64,000 nucleotides of DNA from Accumulibacter sp. (GTDB taxonomy: Bacteria; Pseudomonadota; Gammaproteobacteria; Burkholderiales; Rhodocyclaceae). Below are positions 6,888 through 50,453 of the stretch, one piece after another; within the stretch, counting starts at the first letter, position 1; every line of letters begins with the position of its first letter. A program made the translations under genes and the position numbers. Below the pieces are notes generated by a model that was not told where the DNA came from, made no database searches, and saw only the letters and a list, made by a program, of their open reading frames with translations. The DNA is taken from contig NZ_JAPUVR010000100.1 of NCBI RefSeq assembly GCF_029255125.1, forward strand, positions 248,001-312,000, in the 5' to 3' direction.

Positions 6888-8594
6888 TCAGCATCCACAG
6901 CCATAGCTGAACGTATCGTGACCGAGCACCTTCCAAGCGCCGTTGATGTTGGCGAGTACAAGACGGTACCAGCGATCGTCTGTTTTGGTTGGTCCGACGA
7001 GATGCCCTGGCCCATTTCCTTCCCCTTCCCATACGGAAATATCGGGAATCCCGTCCCTATCCAGATCGTAGTTCAAATAGGAGCCGCGCACAAAGCCCGT
7101 GTCATCGCGTTTCAGCTTGATCGGGACCTCGTTGAGAATGGCCGGGCCGGTTGGCAATTCGATGTCCGTATAAAAGGCAAAAAGGCTTCCCGCGGGATTG
7201 CGTTTTCGACTTTTTCGCTGGTGGTCAGCGCGGTATTCTTCGTTGACATCGACGCGCAAATAGCGCCAGACGCCGGGATCGGCGTCACCGAATTCAAACC
7301 CCGCAATCCAGTCAGAGCAATGGGGTTCATCGATGTCATGCCACAGGGTTCGGGTTTTGCGAATAAAGCTTTTTTCTACCCGCAGTCGACCGTCTCGAAA
7401 TAACTGCACGCGCTGTAGTGGCCGTACGAGGACCTGAGTGTGCCTCAAGATGTCGTATAGCCCCGGTGTACTGCCATCCTCATCGCCAGCTTTGGGAGTC
7501 GGGCGCGGAGTGACCAATTGCCGGAAAACGATGCCAAATCTGCCGCTGGCCTGCTCGGCGGTAGCGTTGGGGGGCGCAAGTTCTGCTTCGTTGCGGAACA
7601 ACGACGGGCGCACAATGGGAAAATCCAGCTCGCGAATGAGACGAACGACGCGTGCTGCGCCACCATCGGCAGTAATTGCGTCGTGCAGTGGCCCCCAAAG
7701 ACCGATCGCTGTTTGTAGATTCGTGGCAGCGCTCTCGGTCCGCCATTCTCGCTGGGAAATTTCCTTCGGCACATTCTTCCCAGTTGCCCGCAAGCGTCGC
7801 GCTTCTCCGCTCAAATTCAGATCTTGCGCTGCCTGACGCTTGAGCGATGACCAGGCCGCGTAGGGCTCCGGCTTGCGGCCATTGATCCCCAGCGCCAGGT
7901 GGGCCTTCATACGTTCCAGCACCTCGTTACGCGGCCAAGACCCCCGCGGCAGAATGTTCAGGTGCTCGGCATACTGCTGCAAGGCGTCCCAACTGGGCTC
8001 CAGCCAAAACGCGCGCTCGATATCGTCACCAGATGGCGGCGCTTCCCCACTTCTTCGGTAGCCGCGGACATGCGCCAGAACCACCGGAGTCGGTGCCAGA
8101 TAACGGCAAGCGACGTAACCGCTCGGGCCATTTGCCGGTTGGACTTCGCAGTAGCCACTCCCCGGGGCTTCGCGCGAGAGCTTGACGATCGCGTTCAGCC
8201 CCAACCGATCAAGGATGGGGGCGTCCTGCCGCGGTGCCTCGCGTAGAGTCACCGCATTTCCGCTCACCCAGCGTTGCGCGGCATCGGCCCCATCCGCACC
8301 GGCCTTCGGGCGCGCAACACGATCGGTGCTCAGGTGCTGACAAGCCACATAGCCATATTGTCCGTCGCCTTCGATGTAACAGAATCCTTCGCGAGGCGCC
8401 ATCTTGAGGATCACTTCCGTGCCGCGGGATAGCTTTCCCAGAACCCTTTGCTCCGGGCCCGGCCCCGCTCGCACGCGTAGATCGTCTACCCGCACCCAAA
8501 GAGAAGACTGAGCAGAAGACCCCGCCTGATTGGCCAGCGATGGCAGGACAGGAAAGATGAGGGCGGCAGCGGCGACAAGATCTGATCTTTTCAT
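6888..8594 (-). CDS. secreted protein with two N-terminal SH3b domains
   Basis: The protein is 568 residues from the ATG at 8594, which has AGGAG 6-7 bp upstream; a longer frame to 8636 lacks a site. Residues 1-21 form a signal peptide ending near SLANQA. Two bacterial SH3 domains follow, at about 33-92 and 106-170, each with the VRAGPG/LREAP-type start and a conserved GYVAC ending. The remaining 390 residues are not recognised. Near the C-terminus a DLDRDGIPDISVWEG segment resembles a calcium-binding Asp-rich loop, and the protein ends YGCGC. SH3b repeats usually bind peptidoglycan or protein ligands, so a periplasmic or cell-surface role is likely. It shares strand with the helicase/methylase pair but is 858 bp away, so membership in that system is not supported. 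Confidence 0.7.
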   Translation of the reverse strand: MKRSDLVAAAALIFPVLPSLANQAGSSAQSSLWVRVDDLRVRAGPGPEQRVLGKLSRGTEVILKMAPREGFCYIEGDGQYGYVACQHLSTDRVARPKAGADGADAAQRWVSGNAVTLREAPRQDAPILDRLGLNAIVKLSREAPGSGYCEVQPANGPSGYVACRYLAPTPVVLAHVRGYRRSGEAPPSGDDIERAFWLEPSWDALQQYAEHLNILPRGSWPRNEVLERMKAHLALGINGRKPEPYAAWSSLKRQAAQDLNLSGEARRLRATGKNVPKEISQREWRTESAATNLQTAIGLWGPLHDAITADGGAARVVRLIRELDFPIVRPSLFRNEAELAPPNATAEQASGRFGIVFRQLVTPRPTPKAGDEDGSTPGLYDILRHTQVLVRPLQRVQLFRDGRLRVEKSFIRKTRTLWHDIDEPHCSDWIAGFEFGDADPGVWRYLRVDVNEEYRADHQRKSRKRNPAGSLFAFYTDIELPTGPAILNEVPIKLKRDDTGFVRGSYLNYDLDRDGIPDISVWEGEGNGPGHLVGPTKTDDRWYRLVLANINGAWKVLGHDTFSYGCGC

Positions 8595-9632
8595 GTTCAC
8601 TCCTGAAGGTCTTGCTCTGCTACAAAGCTGACGCAATATATCAATTTAGCGGATCTTTGCGTTGGGCGATCGCTCCGCCGGCTTGCCGCTCCGCCACAGG
8701 CAGCAGGCACGACAGTCGCGGGCTCATGTCGTTCTCTTTTCCTCCTGGCGCGCGCATCTGGCGGAACAAGCGCCGAACTGAAAAAAAGTATCCTTATGCC
8801 ATATTCGTAACCGCCAACCGGTACGCCAACATGGTCATGACCCCCCTCGCCGGGCCATATTTCCCGAGGAAGCGATTCCAGATCGAGACTGTTCGCGCGG
8901 GCCAGGAAGCCGCGAGGGTAGGCGTTCCTGTTCCATTTATTCTATGGATTGACGTTCTCGCCGAACCTGTGTTGTCGCGCACTCTGATTTACTTTTCGGC
9001 GGCCATTCTCGGTGACTCTTGCTGAGCCAAAGGCTGCACGGGATCTGCCCGGAATTCGCGAATCAGCGCCGCCAGAGGAGTTGCCTCGGACCTTGCGTCG
9101 AGCAGCGCTAACGCGTCCGGCTGGGCGCCGTGAGTCAGCGAGCGATAGCGATAGAGCGTATCCAGCTCGCCGTCCAGGCCATCAAAAGCGCAACCCGCCA
9201 ACTGGGCGACAGCCCAAGGCTGGATTTCGTCCGTCGTCCGGTGCTTCACCCGCACGTGGCGGCTGCGCCCGCGTATCTCGATACCCGGTCGGGTGAGTAG
9301 CACTCGGTGACGATAGATCCTTTTCTGGGGTGTCGCCGACCAGGAACACGCCGTTTTCACCGCTGGCGACCGCAGCACACGGCAGAACGAGCGCTGAAGC
9401 GTGGTCTCCGGGCGCTCTCCGTCTTTCCGGTGATCGACCGGGCGTACAAGACGGTGGTGCGGCGGAGGCGCACAATCCGCACGGCCTTGTCCCACGCGTG
9501 AATACGGTTTTGAAGCATGTCTTTAAAGCGTGTGTTTCCGGATCTGGGGTGAACCACCGATGTTGCGCTCGGCCCTGTAATGACCGTCGCTGTTTGAGGG
9601 GAAACAGGGGTGTTTCGTCTCGGGGTATTCAA

Positions 9633-9703
9633 GAAGCACTGGGGCGGGGTCAAGGGCGGGCGAAGCCCGGCAAAGCGAACCCTTGACCCCGCCCCAGTGC
9701 TTC
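9633..9703. repeat. inverted repeat with perfect 24-bp arms and nested hairpin
   Basis: Arms at 9633-9656 and 9680-9703 are perfectly complementary over 24 bp and G+C rich (GGGGCGGGGTCAAGGG core). The 23-nt loop contains its own 5-bp stem, CGGGC-GAA-GCCCG, at 9657-9669. There is no T-run, so it is not a typical intrinsic terminator. The form resembles REP/BIME-like or miniature mobile palindromes. Whether it recurs in the genome cannot be seen from this window. Confidence 0.85.
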
Positions 9704-9722
9704 ATACGCTGCGCCGGCAGGC

Positions 9723-9748
9723 CGAATGCGGCAATATTGCCGCATTCG
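9723..9748. repeat. perfect 26-bp palindrome centred on AATATT
   Basis: Every one of the 13 base pairs on each side of the centre (between 9735 and 9736) is complementary, and pairing resumes at 9721/9750 after one mismatch. A loop-less palindrome of this length could be a site for a dimeric DNA-binding protein or the end of a mobile element. It lies 20 bp from the larger hairpin. The downstream end of the flavocytochrome gene is at 9912, about 160 bp away. Confidence 0.85.
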
Positions 9749-9911
9749 CCTTGACAAGCAAATGCGCTTTTCGCCACTTGTTTCGCCTCGAATAGGTCGG
9801 GACGAAGAGTCTTGAACAGGGCGGAACGTAACACTTGGGACGACGACGTTCGGCTCCGGATTCTCGGCCTCGCACACATGTGACTTCCGCGTGCGGAGGC
9901 CCCCTTTTGTC

Positions 9912-11234
9912 TCACCGCATTTCGAAAGCTTCCTGGTGGAATCTGAACCGACGGTGTCCGCTACGCCCGAGTGCAAGCTTGAGCTTTTCGGCCAAGCCTT
10001 GCGGCCCGCAATACCAGATCTCGGATCGGCACGAGCCAGCCTGCGCAGGGGCCACATCGGCAGCGGTCAATATTTCACCCTGGTGGGCGCCATGAATGTG
10101 CAGCCCGATGCCAGGTAACGCGGCGCAAGCTGTCTCCAGACGGCCGATAAACGGATCATTGCTTCGATCACGGGTGCAGTAGTGGAGATCTGCGGAAACT
10201 GGGCTCGACGTCTGTTGCAAGGCATCCAGCCAGGCGAGGAAGGGCGTTACTCCGATCCCGCCGGCAATCCAGATTTGTTTGGCGCCCGAATCATGACGGG
10301 CCATGTCGAAGCGTCCATAAGGCCCTTCGACCCTTATGGCTTGACCGACCTCCAGTCGCTTGCCCAGGGTTCGGGTGTAATCACCGAGCGCCTTGATCTG
10401 GAAACTCATCCTTCGATCACCGCGATCGGAAGTGGCGATTGTGAATGGGTGCGCCCCCTCTTTCTCATCGAAGGTAATGAATGCAAACTGACCAGGGCGA
10501 TGGCCAGACCATTTTTTGTCGAGCTGGCAACTGACGGTAAGCACATCCGGGGAAGCTGGGTCGATGGCTGTCACGGTTCCGCTAGCGCGGCGCACTCTCC
10601 CGATGCGACCGAGCAGCGAGCAGAGAGCGCCATAGATCCCACCAACGCCAAGCAAAGCGATGAGAATGCCGACTGGTTGGGTCCAGTAATCAGTCGGCGC
10701 GAGCATGGCGGCATGAAGCGCCAGCATCAGATAAAGCACCGGCATGGCCTGATGCACTACCCGCCAGGTCTTATAGGGAAAGCGCTTCCATAAGGTGATG
10801 ACCAGCATTGCCAGCACGAGATAGAACGCCCACTCCCCGATGTCCTTCGCCAGGTCGCGCATCACTTCCAGGAAGCCGGTAAATTGCTCCTTGGGTATGC
10901 GGCCTTCGCGTCCGACCATCGCCTTGAGAATGTCTCCGACGACTTCCTCGACCAGCCAATGCACGACGGCAAAGCTCACCGCGAGAATGCCGGACCATTT
11001 ATGCGTCCGATAGACTCGATCCATGCCGCCTAGCGGGGTTTCGAGCCAGGCGGGACGTGTGGACAAGAACATCGTCAGCGACATCAAAGCGATCGACAGC
11101 AGACCACTCAGATAGAGCGCTTCCTGCCGGATTACCCATGGCAGCGCGCCACGACTGCTACCACCCGTGGCAAGTACGTCCACTCCCCAGGCCAGCGTGA
11201 CGATGGCGAGTAGAGAACCGAGCAAGATTTTCAT
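9912..11234 (-). CDS. ferric-reductase-like flavocytochrome (TM heme b domain + FAD/NAD(P)H domain)
   Basis: This 440-residue inner-membrane oxidoreductase has an N-terminal half with about six hydrophobic helices (roughly 1-215) and His residues in HKWSG, AVVHWLV, RVVHQAMP and LALHAAM positions, fitting a ferric reductase-like heme b domain. The C-terminal half is a ferredoxin-reductase module with flavin motif HPFTIAT and nucleotide-binding GGIGVTPFLAWL, ending in WYCGPQG. It should move electrons from NAD(P)H through FAD and heme b across the membrane. The ATG at 11234 has AGGAG 8 bp upstream. It is the last gene of a minus-strand cluster with DHC- and SHP-like cytochromes, where a membrane cytochrome b is usual, so it is a likely electron donor to them. 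MsrQ/YedZ was considered, but those lack the flavin/NAD domain. Confidence 0.8.
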   Translation of the reverse strand: MKILLGSLLAIVTLAWGVDVLATGGSSRGALPWVIRQEALYLSGLLSIALMSLTMFLSTRPAWLETPLGGMDRVYRTHKWSGILAVSFAVVHWLVEEVVGDILKAMVGREGRIPKEQFTGFLEVMRDLAKDIGEWAFYLVLAMLVITLWKRFPYKTWRVVHQAMPVLYLMLALHAAMLAPTDYWTQPVGILIALLGVGGIYGALCSLLGRIGRVRRASGTVTAIDPASPDVLTVSCQLDKKWSGHRPGQFAFITFDEKEGAHPFTIATSDRGDRRMSFQIKALGDYTRTLGKRLEVGQAIRVEGPYGRFDMARHDSGAKQIWIAGGIGVTPFLAWLDALQQTSSPVSADLHYCTRDRSNDPFIGRLETACAALPGIGLHIHGAHQGEILTAADVAPAQAGSCRSEIWYCGPQGLAEKLKLALGRSGHRRFRFHQEAFEMR

Positions 11235-47035: not shown

Positions 47036-48172
47036 CTATTGCTGCCTGAGATCGAGTTGCGCCAGATCGACGCGTTTGCGCACGCCGCGCAGGCGCAGCC
47101 AGGCCTTGTGCGACAGGTGTCGGGTGAGCAAGCCTGGCGGCATGCGCAACCAGTGGGCGCGAATGTAGATCAGCCAGCGGGCCAGGGTCGCCCGTCCGCG
47201 CGGGCGATCGGGGTGTTCCGGCAGCAAAGCGAGCGGAATCAGGCGATCCATCAGGGCGAGCAGCGGGCGCGGCGGGGCTGCCGGTGCGAGCTGCTGGACG
47301 ACGCTCGTCGGAACCGGCGTGGCGAACAGCCGCTGGGCGTAGCGCAGGCCGTAGAACAGTGGCCGCCGGAAGCCGAGCGCGCCGGCGCGCGCTACCAGGT
47401 CGGCCCAGAAGTCTGTCTGTTGCGCGAAGTGGCACAGCAGATCATGTACATCGAGCAGATCGCGCAGGCGCAGCCCTTCGTCCGGATCTCCTTCGAGAAA
47501 CAGATGGACGAGCGCATGCAGGACCATGTCCGGTGGTGAGAGAACGTGCAGACGTGGGTCGGCGAGCGGCTGAGCGGCAGCAAGCAGTGGTTCAGGGCTC
47601 GACGGGAGGCGGCTGGTGCGTGGCAGCAGGCGATGATGAAGATCGATTTCGGTCCCCCGTTCGCTGTGCCGCAGCGGTGGAATCTCGTGCATCCAGACGC
47701 GGTAGTAGCGGTCGTCGTAAGGATCGATCTCGGTCTTGAACCAGCCATGTCCGACCAGTTGCTCCTCGATCTCGCCAATCTTCTCCTCGGGCACGAGCAG
47801 GTCGACGTCGGCGAAGACGCGGCCACGCGCCGGTGGCAGCCGGGCCAGCAGGTAGCCGCTGCCCTTGAGCAGGATGAGTGGCGTAGCGCTGCCGGCGAGC
47901 GCCCACAGGATGCGGTTGACTTCCCAGGTGATCAGCGTCTGCCGATGCGTGATGACCTGACGCGCGGCCTGCAGGTGCTGCGCGGCGCCCGTCGGGATGG
48001 CGTGCAGCAGTCCGCGTTGGGCAAGATCGGCTTCGATCCGGCCGAGCAGACGCGCGCGCCGTCCGACGCGCACGAGCAGTTCCCAGTCGGCCACCGACAG
48101 CCGGATGAGGTCGGCCGGCTGGTTGATCGCGTCCAGCAACAGTTGCTGAGCTCGTCGCGTTGCGCTGTCCAC
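47036..48172 (-). CDS. nucleotidyltransferase family protein (HPr-rel-A cassette)
   Basis: The protein is 378 residues with the GTG start at 48172, 1 bp after the kinase stop; an ATG at 48190 overlapping the kinase gene is an alternative. The fold is that of minimal nucleotidyltransferases (PF14907-like): LILLKGSGYLLARLP, then RVFADVDLLVPEE with the DxD metal motif (about residues 113-128), and HLHHRLL-type His residues further on. The C-terminal 130 residues are helical. It is the last gene of the four-gene cassette. Its substrate is unknown; modification of the cassette's small protein or of a cofactor is inference. dnaE2 follows after 107 bp with its own promoter. Confidence 0.78.
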   Translation of the reverse strand: MDSATRRAQQLLLDAINQPADLIRLSVADWELLVRVGRRARLLGRIEADLAQRGLLHAIPTGAAQHLQAARQVITHRQTLITWEVNRILWALAGSATPLILLKGSGYLLARLPPARGRVFADVDLLVPEEKIGEIEEQLVGHGWFKTEIDPYDDRYYRVWMHEIPPLRHSERGTEIDLHHRLLPRTSRLPSSPEPLLAAAQPLADPRLHVLSPPDMVLHALVHLFLEGDPDEGLRLRDLLDVHDLLCHFAQQTDFWADLVARAGALGFRRPLFYGLRYAQRLFATPVPTSVVQQLAPAAPPRPLLALMDRLIPLALLPEHPDRPRGRATLARWLIYIRAHWLRMPPGLLTRHLSHKAWLRLRGVRKRVDLAQLDLRQQ

Positions 48173-48173
48173 G

Positions 48174-49091
48174 CTAGCCCTGGTCAGCATCCGCCAACTC
48201 GCCGAGCACGCGGATCGCTTCGTCGAGATTGGAATAGCAGAGCGAGTAGCAGTTGCAGGCATCAACCATGTCGGCGACGAGTGAAAAGGCGGTGGCGTCG
48301 AGCACCTCGTAGTTGAACGAGTTGGTCGCGACCATCAGGAAAGCCTGACTTTTCGGCATTCGTGTGAGGCTGAGCGCGGCTCCGGCGAGCCAGCGCGGAA
48401 AGACCAGCCAGCGCGGCCGGGCCGGCTCGTCTGCTCGCCGGATGCTGTCGAGCGGCGGTCGGACGTGCGCTACGGTTCCTTTGCGCGTGCCGTAGAAGGC
48501 AGGACCAATGACGGCGTCGGACCGGAAACGGCGGATGACGTCGATCGACTCGTTCTTCAGCGGGATCAGCCGAGGGATCGGCAAGACGCTTCCGTCTGCC
48601 GGGTGCACCAGCCCGAACTCGTCGGAGAGCAGGCGCCAGCCCGAGTGGATGAGCGCCGTGCACAGCGTCGACTTGCCGTGCCCAGGCCAGGCAGGAAAAA
48701 GCATCGCCTTGCCTTGCCGTTCGACGACGGCCGAATGCAGCATCAGCAGGTGATGCGAGCGCGTTGCGACACACCAGTTGATTCCCCACTCCAGCGCCGG
48801 AAAGGCATGCTCGACGGTGTAGGGTGCGAACGGCGACTGTCCGTCGACGGCAAAACAGACCTGCTGGCGCCACCAACGGCGCAGGCCGCGCGGTCGGGCA
48901 AGGCGGACGTGGAAATCGTTGAAACTTGCCTCTCCAGGAATCGGGTAGGGCGCGTAGAGCTGATGGGCAAGTGCCGCAAAACTGGCGAGTTCGGAGCGAA
49001 TCCGGATGTTGAATGGACCAAAACGGATGCCCAGACCATCGCCCGCCAGCCGTTGCGCAACGTCCTGGCGAGCCAGATCGCCAATGATCAC
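48174..49091 (-). CDS. HprK-related kinase A
   Basis: The protein is 305 residues from a GTG at 49091 that overlaps the PqqD-like stop (GTGA). It resembles the HPr kinase/phosphorylase core: HSAVVE, a P-loop in PAWPGHGKSTLC (about 140-151) and SDEFGLVHP following it. The N-terminal 100 residues differ from true HprK. No PTS HPr gene is nearby, so a different substrate is expected, possibly the small secreted protein or the PqqD-like partner. The family is known by its linkage to a PqqD-like protein and a nucleotidyltransferase (HPr-rel-A system), but I know of no established biochemical function. Confidence 0.82.
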   Translation of the reverse strand: MIIGDLARQDVAQRLAGDGLGIRFGPFNIRIRSELASFAALAHQLYAPYPIPGEASFNDFHVRLARPRGLRRWWRQQVCFAVDGQSPFAPYTVEHAFPALEWGINWCVATRSHHLLMLHSAVVERQGKAMLFPAWPGHGKSTLCTALIHSGWRLLSDEFGLVHPADGSVLPIPRLIPLKNESIDVIRRFRSDAVIGPAFYGTRKGTVAHVRPPLDSIRRADEPARPRWLVFPRWLAGAALSLTRMPKSQAFLMVATNSFNYEVLDATAFSLVADMVDACNCYSLCYSNLDEAIRVLGELADADQG

Positions 49092-49414
49092 CGCACGTCG
49101 TCCGCTGCTTGTACGCGCTCGATCAGGCCAAGCTCATCCAGCCGGTGTACGGCGGCGAAAAAATCTGCTTCCGCAAGATCGCCGCGCTGGGCTCCGAGCG
49201 CCTGTTCCACGTGTGACTTCAACTCATCCAAGGTCAGGAGCCGATCATCGAGGGTGCGCAGGATGGCAGCAGTCGGTCCGTTGAAGACGTGTGTTTCGGC
49301 TGATGATGGCTGATAGACGATGTACAGATCGGCGTCCCAGCTTCGCCACAGCAGGCCGCCGCTGGCGGCAGCCCGGCTGACACAAAGGAATTCTTCCCGT
49401 GCCTCATCGCCCAT
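49088..49414 (-). CDS. PqqD-like peptide chaperone (HPr-rel-A system)
   Basis: The 108-residue protein has the RiPP-recognition-element fold: YIVYQPSSAETHVFNGPTAAILRTLDD, then LTLDELKSHVEQAL and HRLDELGLIERV, a winged-helix of PqqD type. Such proteins bind leader peptides and deliver them to modifying enzymes. The ATG at 49414 has no clear Shine-Dalgarno sequence, and the stop overlaps the kinase GTG start. It lies 77 bp downstream of the small secreted protein gene on the same strand, so it may bind that protein. Confidence 0.8.
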   Translation of the reverse strand: MGDEAREEFLCVSRAAASGGLLWRSWDADLYIVYQPSSAETHVFNGPTAAILRTLDDRLLTLDELKSHVEQALGAQRGDLAEADFFAAVHRLDELGLIERVQAADDVR

Positions 49415-49491
49415 GCGCTTTGGCGTCGGGTAGTGCTACGCAGACGGATGTCGAACGCCGGCGGGCGGTTCGGTTCGTACGACCCGGGAAC

Positions 49492-49944
49492 TCAGCTTAC
49501 GAGCGAGGTCGCGGCGGCTGAGCTGAGGATGGCAACCGTCCGGTTCGGCATCCCCTGGCAGCGATAAAAACCGGTCGTTATGCCCGGATAGGTGACGGAG
49601 ACACCGCTAAGGGTTCCACCGGTGATTCTGGTTCCAGGACACGTGGCAGGATTCTGGGAAAACGTGTCGACGCATGCATCGCCGACGACGGTGATGCTGT
49701 TCCCCATGAAATCTCCATTGGCGTCCGTCGCTGCGATCTGGCTGACGCCCATGCACGAGACTGCTGCCAGCACACCGCCGCTACGCAGTGTCAAGACCAA
49801 CGGGGCTACAGCCGCAGCACCACGAACCAAGCGACGTCGACCTGGATCGGGGGGAGAAGTCGTTAGCGAACTGACTTGATCGCTCTCAGTGGGCGAAGAT
49901 GCCGGCGACTGTCCTGCTTCGTCAATCGACCTCAAACTTTTCAT
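49492..49944 (-). CDS. small secreted protein with Tat-like signal, likely partner/substrate of the HPr-rel-A cassette
   Basis: The protein is 150 residues from the ATG at 49944, with GGGAG about 9 bp upstream. Residues 1-36 are a hydrophilic Ser/Pro-rich leader; RRRLVRGAAAVAPLVLTL (about 37-54) looks like a twin-arginine signal, with cleavage probably near GGVLAAVS. The mature part of about 90 residues is Gly/Thr/Ser-rich with four Cys (VSC, GDAC, ATC, YRC) and no charged patches. I do not recognise a family. The long leader before the Tat motif, and a PqqD-type chaperone encoded next, would fit a leader-recognition role, which is inference. Confidence 0.65.
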   Translation of the reverse strand: MKSLRSIDEAGQSPASSPTESDQVSSLTTSPPDPGRRRLVRGAAAVAPLVLTLRSGGVLAAVSCMGVSQIAATDANGDFMGNSITVVGDACVDTFSQNPATCPGTRITGGTLSGVSVTYPGITTGFYRCQGMPNRTVAILSSAAATSLVS

Positions 49945-50453
49945 AAATGCTGCTCCCAGTTATTCAGCTTGCCGTTGCCGTATTACCAAACCCGAACCTC
50001 TCTGGCAGCCTGTTCCGGCAGCCTCGCGTTTGGCGGCTGCCGTCACGCTAGCTGGCAGGCTGCTGCTTGGTTTGCGCGCACCCGGAAGCGGCGCGCCAAC
50101 TGCCCAGTCAGCGCCAGTGTAACCTGCGCGCGGTCGGTCATCTGTAAAAAAAGTCTCACGTTTGAGCGCTGCCCTGCCGCCGGCGACGACAATTTGCCAT
50201 CGTTTTCGCATCAGGCCGGCGCGCCCTGTCTAAATCATAGAATAGCAAATCCTGTGCCATCGTCAATGGGCCAAATGAATCAAAGCCTAAATCATTGGCT
50301 TAAGCGATCAACCAGAATAGCAGGAGATGTGTGCAGGTATTTGGGTGTAAAAAAAACCGACATGTGCTGTTGCTGGTTTGCCAACCTTGCGCGCTCACCC
50401 TGGGTCTGCGTCGATGCTTGTCCCTGACCGCCGCATGTCGGTGCCTGCTTCCC
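49945..50453. other. 509-bp AT-richer intergenic region between the secreted-protein gene and glnD
   Basis: No supported gene. The region follows glnD and precedes the secreted-protein gene, both minus. Seen from the minus strand there are T-runs at 50356-50349 (8 T) and 50152-50146 (7 T); the second follows a small CTCA-AACG-TGAG stem, so it could be a weak glnD terminator. The 50230-50360 part is clearly lower in GC than its surroundings, suggesting promoter or transferred DNA. The promoter of the cassette must lie here, but I cannot define it. Confidence 0.45.

Follow-up and report, generated by a model that had tools for sequence, protein, structure and literature searches.

The closest described counterparts of the locus analysed here are the system of the linear polyphosphorylated peptides (LPP) and the lasso peptides paeninodin and pseudomycoidin. 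In the LPP system, LppK polyphosphorylates Ser3 of the core, and a recognition element (RRE) of the kind known from ribosomally synthesized and post-translationally modified peptides (RiPPs) and an NTP transferase belong to the system (Popov et al. 2026, PMC13381572). LPP precursors comprise 35-200 aa with a conserved N-terminus and a variable C-terminus, and their loci occur among polysaccharide genes. In case of paeninodin and pseudomycoidin (PadeK, PsmK, PsmN), an HprK-like kinase acts on Ser, accompanied by a nucleotidyltransferase-family partner and a separate RRE (B1). The lasso kinases carry an H-K-D-D motif (PMC9266682), and PsmN, a nucleotidyltransferase-family protein, adds hexoses to the phosphate in pseudomycoidin (PMC9266682, PMC8498205). 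Here we describe a four-gene HPr-rel-A cassette on the minus strand of a 64,000-nt stretch of Accumulibacter sp. (the window; contig NZ_JAPUVR010000100.1, positions 248,001 to 312,000), which encodes a small precursor with a twin-arginine translocation (Tat)-like leader, a PqqD-like protein, an HprK-related kinase A and an NTP_transf_5 nucleotidyltransferase-fold protein (NT). The open-access literature (PMC), to which the search was restricted, yielded no paper on HPr-rel-A or HprK-related kinase A, none joining exosortase to HprK/HPr kinase or PqqD, and none on PqqD together with HprK and a nucleotidyltransferase or with HprK and lasso peptides. For RREs in connection with twin-arginine signals it yielded one paper, on hot-spring communities.

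Similar to LPP (PMC13381572), the cassette combines a discrete putative RRE, an HprK-like kinase and an NTP transferase. In contrast, LPP is described from Bacillota with the leader YxxPxVLxHQxIxFETxxS, a dedicated SipW-like peptidase and an MsbA-like transporter, whereas the loci considered here are proteobacterial and in some cases planctomycetal and carry a Tat-like leader. The LPP leader motif is absent from the family leader consensus RR..PVxLTLxS..LA, and neither a SipW-like peptidase nor an MsbA-like transporter was found among the 15 neighbour proteins of 13 recurrent clusters that were annotated, no targeted search having been made. From the lasso systems the window cassette differs in that none of its four genes is a B2 protease or lasso cyclase gene, and the client would be a protein of 108-308 aa, the length range of the precursors, instead of a threaded peptide. 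The window precursor ends in VAILSSAAATSLVS, thus without the C-terminal PEP, hydrophobic stretch and basic tail of PEP-CTERM proteins. Kinase and PqqD-like protein both exceed the cut-offs of the models of the NCBIfam HPr-rel-A trio (TIGR04352, TIGR04353), while the window precursor has no match at E<=0.1 to any NCBIfam or Pfam model. Since the LPP leader motif, the PEP-CTERM tail and matches to Tat hidden Markov models (HMMs) are all missing, we class the cassette only as HPr-rel-A, with the precursor as a new defining member. On balance we favour the view that it represents a leader-directed modification and export system, in which an RRE would bind the Tat leader and the protein would be phosphorylated, further extended and exported to the matrix.

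The recurrence of the precursor beside the kinase was followed in 125 loci (the window, 56 named loci and 68 further genomes of the order), with the kinase as the constant cassette member by construction of the locus search. A kinase open reading frame (ORF) was located in 124 of them, and 122 loci were left after reduction at 95% kinase identity. Rows L004-L032 (shorter versions of loci), L088 (truncated kinase), L151 and L156 (duplicates) were dropped. Also excluded from the counts were distant kinases on plasmids of Methylosinus and Parasedimentitalea, after inspection, and weaker matches in Sinorhizobium and Ensifer. A leader profile, seeded from 65 ORFs in the slot 5' of pqqD and rebuilt three times from its own matches at any position, was run over 9212 ORFs at E<=0.05, the slot being defined by an ORF end 100-520 nt before the kinase. 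It matches the slot in 108 of the 122 loci (109 ORFs), and altogether 121 loci pair the kinase with a precursor that has a Tat-like leader. Among the other 14 loci, the precursor is located 3' of the NT gene in seven (L089, L096, L097, L099, L101, L124, and L148), slightly displaced in four and fused with the kinase in L083. In L093 it occupies the slot, unmatched by the profile and assigned by eye. L052, the one locus without a precursor, stops at a contig edge. The only other profile matches were a second copy in L048 and a 42-aa chance match. The seven loci with a precursor 3' of NT indicate that the partnership persists through rearrangement.

A held-out set of 33 loci consisted of 31 loci of a class sample, of which L247 duplicates a training locus, and of plasmids of Vibrio alfacsensis and Sphingomonas parapaucimobilis. 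With the profile frozen and the slot set to 0-520 nt before the kinase, 31 of the 33 loci were matched, without any off-slot match among 2201 ORFs. Missed were L245, which lies at a contig edge, and the Sphingomonas protein, whose score is too low although SRR, ALA and a hydrophobic run are all present. In both plasmid records (PLSDB) the precursor gene is annotated as "hypothetical protein". Recurrence of a small Tat/Sec protein at HPr-rel-A loci had been named beforehand as the test of the sequence-only reading, and it was found in 121 of 122 and 31 of 33 loci, with related leaders and cores of several unrelated-looking kinds. On account of this recurrence the four-gene arrangement is not due to chance, and a near-obligatory partnership of kinase and precursor is well supported by the sequence comparisons. 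The kinase family itself occurs in 68 of the 399 genomes in the order sample and in 33 of the 321 in the class sample.

The 399 whole genomes searched with the kinase model were also searched with a leader-only profile of 48 rows at E<=1e-5, with at most 19 candidates scored per genome. Within this scope it matched 50 genomes once each, all of them kinase-positive, and no match was more than 2.2 kb away from the kinase. The 331 kinase-negative genomes gave no match, and 18 of the 68 kinase genomes were missed. Because many profile rows derive from kinase loci, its sensitivity at these loci is partly given by construction, with specificity unaffected. In 30 ordinary Tat loci of relatives, five leader-HMM matches occurred at E<=10, the best at 20.8 bits. 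Among the 123 matches listed at kinase loci, 104 score 30-59 and 19 below 30, six of these at or below 20.8, which denotes a slight overlap with ordinary Tat leaders.

The consensus of Tat signals is RR-x-[LF]-x-[KR]. The 121 aligned leaders read RR-[RK]-[LF]-x-[KR]-G..., followed by P(61%)V, L-T(80%)-L(72%)-x-S(72%) and an AxA-like end, the first position of the RR pair being Arg in 100% and the second in 98%. A median of 32 residues precedes RR, which is an upper estimate counted from the first in-frame start. The Tat-like signal noticed in the sequence-only reading thus stands as regards the features of a Tat substrate (RR motif, hydrophobic run and AxA-type site) and the family consensus; it is on these that the label "Tat-like" rests, since no Tat HMM matched at E<=0.1. 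TatC is present in the Accumulibacter genome. In the window clade R36, R37, R41, G42, A43, A47, P48, L51-G56, and A61 are invariant in 16 of 16 sequences, and identity amounts to 79% in the leader vs 27% in the core. The leader exceeds the core in all seven groups compared (narrowest gap 66 vs 58), whereas in ordinary Tat proteins the core was more conserved than the leader in three of four usable groups, one further group being a frame artefact. A conserved leader with a variable core, as expected of a RiPP with a discrete RRE, is therefore observed.

The coordinates of the cassette and its upstream elements are compiled in Table 1. The order of the four minus-strand genes and the four cysteines of the 150-aa protein, as read from sequence, agree with the ORFs, their translation and family scores above cut-off for kinase, PqqD and NT. 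Likewise, the last three genes overlap or touch: the kinase ORF overlaps the preceding pqqD-like gene by 4 nt (GTGA), and the NT gene starts 1 nt past the kinase stop. The gap between the precursor gene and pqqD is 77 nt. The P-loop is intact and the DxD motif of NT present, as had been noted.

Table 1. Positions of the cassette genes and associated elements in the window
Feature	Position	Strand	Basis and remarks
Precursor (proposed substrate)	49492..49944	-	150 aa: hydrophilic N-terminus, Tat-like leader, four-Cys core; leader-profile match in genome scan; family of 121
Tat-like leader, R36-A61, RRRLVRGAAAVAPLVLTLRSGGVLAA	49762..49839	-	alignment of 16
Precursor core, residues 62-150	49495..49761	-	predicted small beta-rich domain; alignment of 16
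PqqD-like protein, putative RRE, 108 aa	49088..49414	-	TIGR04353 52.4 bits, cut-off 35
HprK-related kinase A, 305 aa, GTG start	48174..49091	-	TIGR04352 410.6 bits, cut-off 200
Kinase P-loop PGHGKST, residues 136-142	48666..48686	-	kinase alignment
NTP_transf_5 nucleotidyltransferase-fold protein (NT), 378 aa, GTG start, DxD at D122/D124	47036..48172	-	PF14907 187.8 bits, cut-off 31.2
PEP-CTERM motif-1-like box GTCGGTTTTTTTTACA, predicted PrsR site	50346..50361	-	compare PMC1569441
Sigma-54-like site TGGCACAGGATTTGCT, 11/12 to consensus	50244..50259	-	motif scan

Kinase residues H119, K140, D157, and E158 are kept in all 121 aligned sequences, an alignment that leaves out L083. An HPr-type regulatory kinase, acting on HPr or another cytosolic protein to tune exopolysaccharide (EPS) synthesis with the PqqD-like and exported proteins as sensors, could account for the HprK homology, weak as it is (TIGR00679, E 0.04). 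Given a separate canonical HprK of 320.7 bits in the Accumulibacter genome, and given that 121 of 122 loci combine the kinase with a precursor and most also with PqqD and NT, we consider this very improbable.

PqqD was found in 103 of the 122 loci, 61 of which show a 4-nt overlap between the kinase and PqqD ORFs. Reading frames from stop to stop added a further 12 loci at E<=1e-8. The window PqqD-like protein has no Pfam match at E<=0.1 despite its TIGR04353 match. The two Pfam PqqD matches of the Accumulibacter genome (L001, L002) lie outside the cassette in large membrane proteins, which by eye resemble M50 peptidases. Natural fusions were observed between a PqqD-like domain and the kinase (L126 3539-4867, 442 aa) and between the kinase and NTP_transf_5 (L059 2560-4662, in a Pirellulales bin); both are counted in favour of the leader-directed system.

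NT was located somewhere in 116 of the 122 loci, and D153, D155, and D208 (numbering of the longer ORF, in which D153/D155 correspond to D122/D124) are kept in all 107 adjacent NT proteins. This conservation would also suit a main chemistry of precursor nucleotidylation, e.g., AMPylation, by NTP_transf_5, with the kinase supplying or reversing the phosphate, and PMC9266682 leaves open whether PsmN is a nucleotidyltransferase. Considering the incomplete occurrence of NT and three Magnetococcales loci which have room but no NT, such a role of NT seems unlikely.

Partial Mantel tests were run on 89 of the 122 loci, leaving out L083 and loci without adjacent PqqD or NT. Correlations were 0.14 for leader-PqqD, 0.25 for leader-kinase and 0.41 for core-kinase (p 0.001 each), and -0.02 (not significant) for core-PqqD; these values give weak support, because shared ancestry inflates such tests.

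As to the core, C91, C102, C129, and S141 are invariant in 16 of 16 sequences of the window clade, and S63 lies near the expected cleavage site. By eye, cores of about 200 aa with SGN and TPGYW motifs, of about 150 aa ending in SC[WY]xS[FL], of the window kind ending in VAILSSxSAxSL, and others were distinguished. No core family exceeded the cut-off among eight precursors tested in Pfam and six in NCBIfam. In the structure model of the window precursor the leader is disordered, whereas the core forms a small, beta-rich, confidently modelled domain; no informative fold match was obtained. Candidate acceptor residues, and not more than candidates, are a Ser at T+3 of the leader (80 of 115 precursors), a Ser within core positions 1-6 (87 of 115 vs 52 expected), and the pattern C-x2-4-S-x3-S (58 of 121 vs 2.0 in shuffles; 26 of 121 in a narrower first version). 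Every such pattern being partial, one universal acceptor residue was rejected.

Upstream of the window precursor, scanning for sigma-70 style promoters returned a single candidate site (0.4 expected), beside which a sigma-54-like site was then seen by eye. Sites of the latter type were scored against the sigma-54 consensus. Excluding loci with short upstream regions, 118 of the 121 loci were used, and 90 of them have a sigma-54-like site of at least 9/12 upstream of the precursor, compared to 16.2 in shuffles and 18 inside the kinase gene; at 10/12 or better the count is 51, compared to 3.8 and 1. A k-mer search upstream of these sites returned GTCG- and TTTACA-type words. The resulting box GTCG-N4-10-TTTACA occurs in 54 of the 118 loci, and in all but one of these the gap is 6; shuffles gave 0.3 and the kinase gene 0. 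A sigma-54-like site accompanies the box in 53 loci, situated 51-96 nt downstream in 49. In L089, L096, L101, and L148, where the precursor lies 3' of NT, GTCG-N6-TTTACA is found upstream of the precursor as well. For the held-out loci, of which 30 of 33 were counted (L247 dropped as a duplicate, L245 and L189 without slot match), 24 have the sigma-54-like site (4.0 expected) and 13 the box (0 in shuffles). No terminator signal above chance was detected at the cassette, and an 83-aa ORF (49960-50211) between the sigma-54-like site and the precursor was discarded as not conserved in the clade.

This layout resembles that of PEP-CTERM genes, which according to Haft et al. 2006 (PMC1569441) are preceded by a 17-nt motif ending in TTTACA, a spacer of mean 62.8 nt (32-92) and a sigma-54 motif, the 17-nt motif being proposed there as the PrsR site. 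The GTCG half of our box is matched to that motif by length and place only. In the window, box and sigma-54-like site are 86 nt apart, and the latter lies 299 nt before the ATG, beyond the maximum of 221 given by Haft et al. The Accumulibacter genome contains the box 15 times (once for a reversed control); 13 of the 15 have a sigma-54-like site, eight precede a gene with a PEP-CTERM-like tail, and another precedes the precursor gene. PrsR is present with 735 bits. A promoter architecture shared with PEP-CTERM genes is thus well supported at the sequence level, and the cassette is predicted to belong to the PrsK/PrsR exopolysaccharide regulon. Box and sigma-54-like site were also observed before genes without a flagged PEP-CTERM tail (L253, L254, L263, and L265 of the same genome), which are possible other members of the PrsR regulon.

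The exosortase XrtA, called by TIGR03109 above cut-off, is present in the Accumulibacter genome. In the order sample of 399 genomes, XrtA occurs in 98, the kinase in 68 and both in 64 (Fisher p 1e-43, relatedness left in); 30 of 31 kinase-positive genera have both, and 20 genomes carry them on the same contig, at most 60 kb apart. The class sample has a few genomes in common with the former; here XrtA was found in 27 of 33 kinase genomes vs 33 of 288 kinase-free ones. Furthermore, within flanks of a few kb, 30 of the 122 loci have a neighbour akin to one of eight annotated XrtA-system proteins (PrsK, PrsR, PrsT, EpsB_2, stp1, stp2, TIGR03108, and an ATPase just below cut-off) at an identity of at least 30% (40% for PrsR) over half the length; PrsK, PrsR, PrsT and XrtA-system glycosyltransferases thereby stand near part of the loci. 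A single-linkage count of 44 loci (52 including a sugar dehydrogenase/epimerase) was too loose and was replaced by this stricter one. This link to the XrtA/PEP-CTERM regulon (PMC1569441), comprising the TTTACA-ending box, the sigma-54 site and XrtA co-occurrence, is an addition to the earlier reading. The cassette appears to be switched on along with the exopolysaccharide genes of biofilms and sludge flocs.

The window clade itself stands outside the XrtA-system neighbour clusters; its cassette neighbours, read by eye, are glnD, map, and a dnaE homologue. Among the named loci, 11 share 71-74% kinase identity with the window, and seven of these are Accumulibacter. On the Vibrio alfacsensis plasmid (L188), cassette and precursor (7875-10942) adjoin 2-aminoethylphosphonate genes; a PqqD-size ORF (8712-8966) is unannotated there, and the promoter scan gave neither box nor sigma-54-like site upstream of the precursor. 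The XrtA-system amidotransferase TIGR03108 reaches 272 and 219 bits (L067 8012-9907 and L066 10045-11934) against the lasso cyclase model, below the cut-off of 525 for that model. The single-linkage cluster of this amidotransferase, a possible further tailoring enzyme, neighbours the cassette in 10 of 122 loci. Clusters of antisense ORFs (an 18-locus one and one of 12 loci), which cover the kinase and NT genes on the minus strand, were regarded as artefacts.

Promoter and XrtA/EPS context, together with the diverse cores and the lack of a universal acceptor residue, would also be expected if the enzymes acted on a small molecule or an exopolysaccharide precursor, the exported protein being an unmodified, co-regulated partner such as a carrier or matrix protein. 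A PqqD/RRE-type protein, however, implies a peptide client, the leader is more conserved than the core, LPP and pseudomycoidin use the same kinds of enzymes, and the 50 matched genomes each have a single, kinase-linked leader match within the scope given above. We therefore regard an unmodified partner as rather unlikely. The sequence-only reading proposed that the PqqD-like protein binds the secreted protein as a substrate, which would be modified ahead of its export; this fits the gene order, the inverted conservation and the LPP and pseudomycoidin precedents.

Several observations weigh against a leader-directed modification and export system. No Ser/Thr is common to all precursors in the alignment of 121, and the fourth catalytic residue of the kinase is E, vs D in the lasso HKDD motif. 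NT was not found in six of 122 loci, of which L074, L076, and L079 had room for it, and PqqD is only weak in three and was not found in four. In the 89 loci tested, the leader follows the kinase at least as well as PqqD; in its family consensus, the aromatic residue that marks the known RRE motif [Y/W]xxPx is missing. The window precursor stays below TIGR01409 and PF10518 with no match at E<=0.1. Of 118 loci, 64 are without the box, and 4 of 68 kinase genomes of the order sample and 6 of 33 of the class sample have no XrtA above cut-off. Finally, LppN was inactive in its test host, where the NTP transferase made no difference (PMC13381572).

For such a leader-directed system we infer leader binding, phosphorylation, a second modification, Tat export, PrsR activation and a role in the matrix. 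The Tat signal of the precursor would double as the recognition leader, to which the PqqD-like RRE would bind, presenting the core to the HprK-related kinase. The kinase would phosphorylate Ser/Thr of the core, and the NTP_transf_5 protein may extend the phosphate by a hexose, as reported for PsmN, or by a nucleotide. The modified protein would then be exported by Tat and cleaved by the general signal peptidase. Expression would be driven by sigma-54 and PrsK/PrsR together with that of PEP-CTERM proteins, and on this basis the product would probably belong to the exopolysaccharide matrix or condition it.

TorD, DmsD, and NapD are cytoplasmic Tat proofreading chaperones, which hold the Tat signal until maturation is finished. 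By analogy, the PqqD-like protein is proposed to be a cytoplasmic protein acting on a Tat signal, with the difference that it belongs to the PqqD family and is tied to a kinase and not to cofactor loading. It is tempting, if speculative, to go further: the Tat signal might be a true RiPP leader, whose twin-arginine signal with the core LxxPVxLTLxS is clamped by the PqqD-like RRE as proofreading chaperone, so that Tat export follows only after kinase and NTP_transf_5 have built a phospho-sugar. The product might then be a PrsK/PrsR-controlled, phosphoglycosylated matrix protein, perhaps covalently joined to the matrix; this detailed scheme we put forward as tentative.

A kinase family for which no published function was found can now be assigned to a specific partner and a predicted regulon, and is likely to have a part in the formation of biofilms and flocs. 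If the Tat signal does double as the RRE leader, RiPP recognition would be joined to Tat quality control, and leader-directed modification would, if this holds true, extend from peptides to folded secreted proteins.

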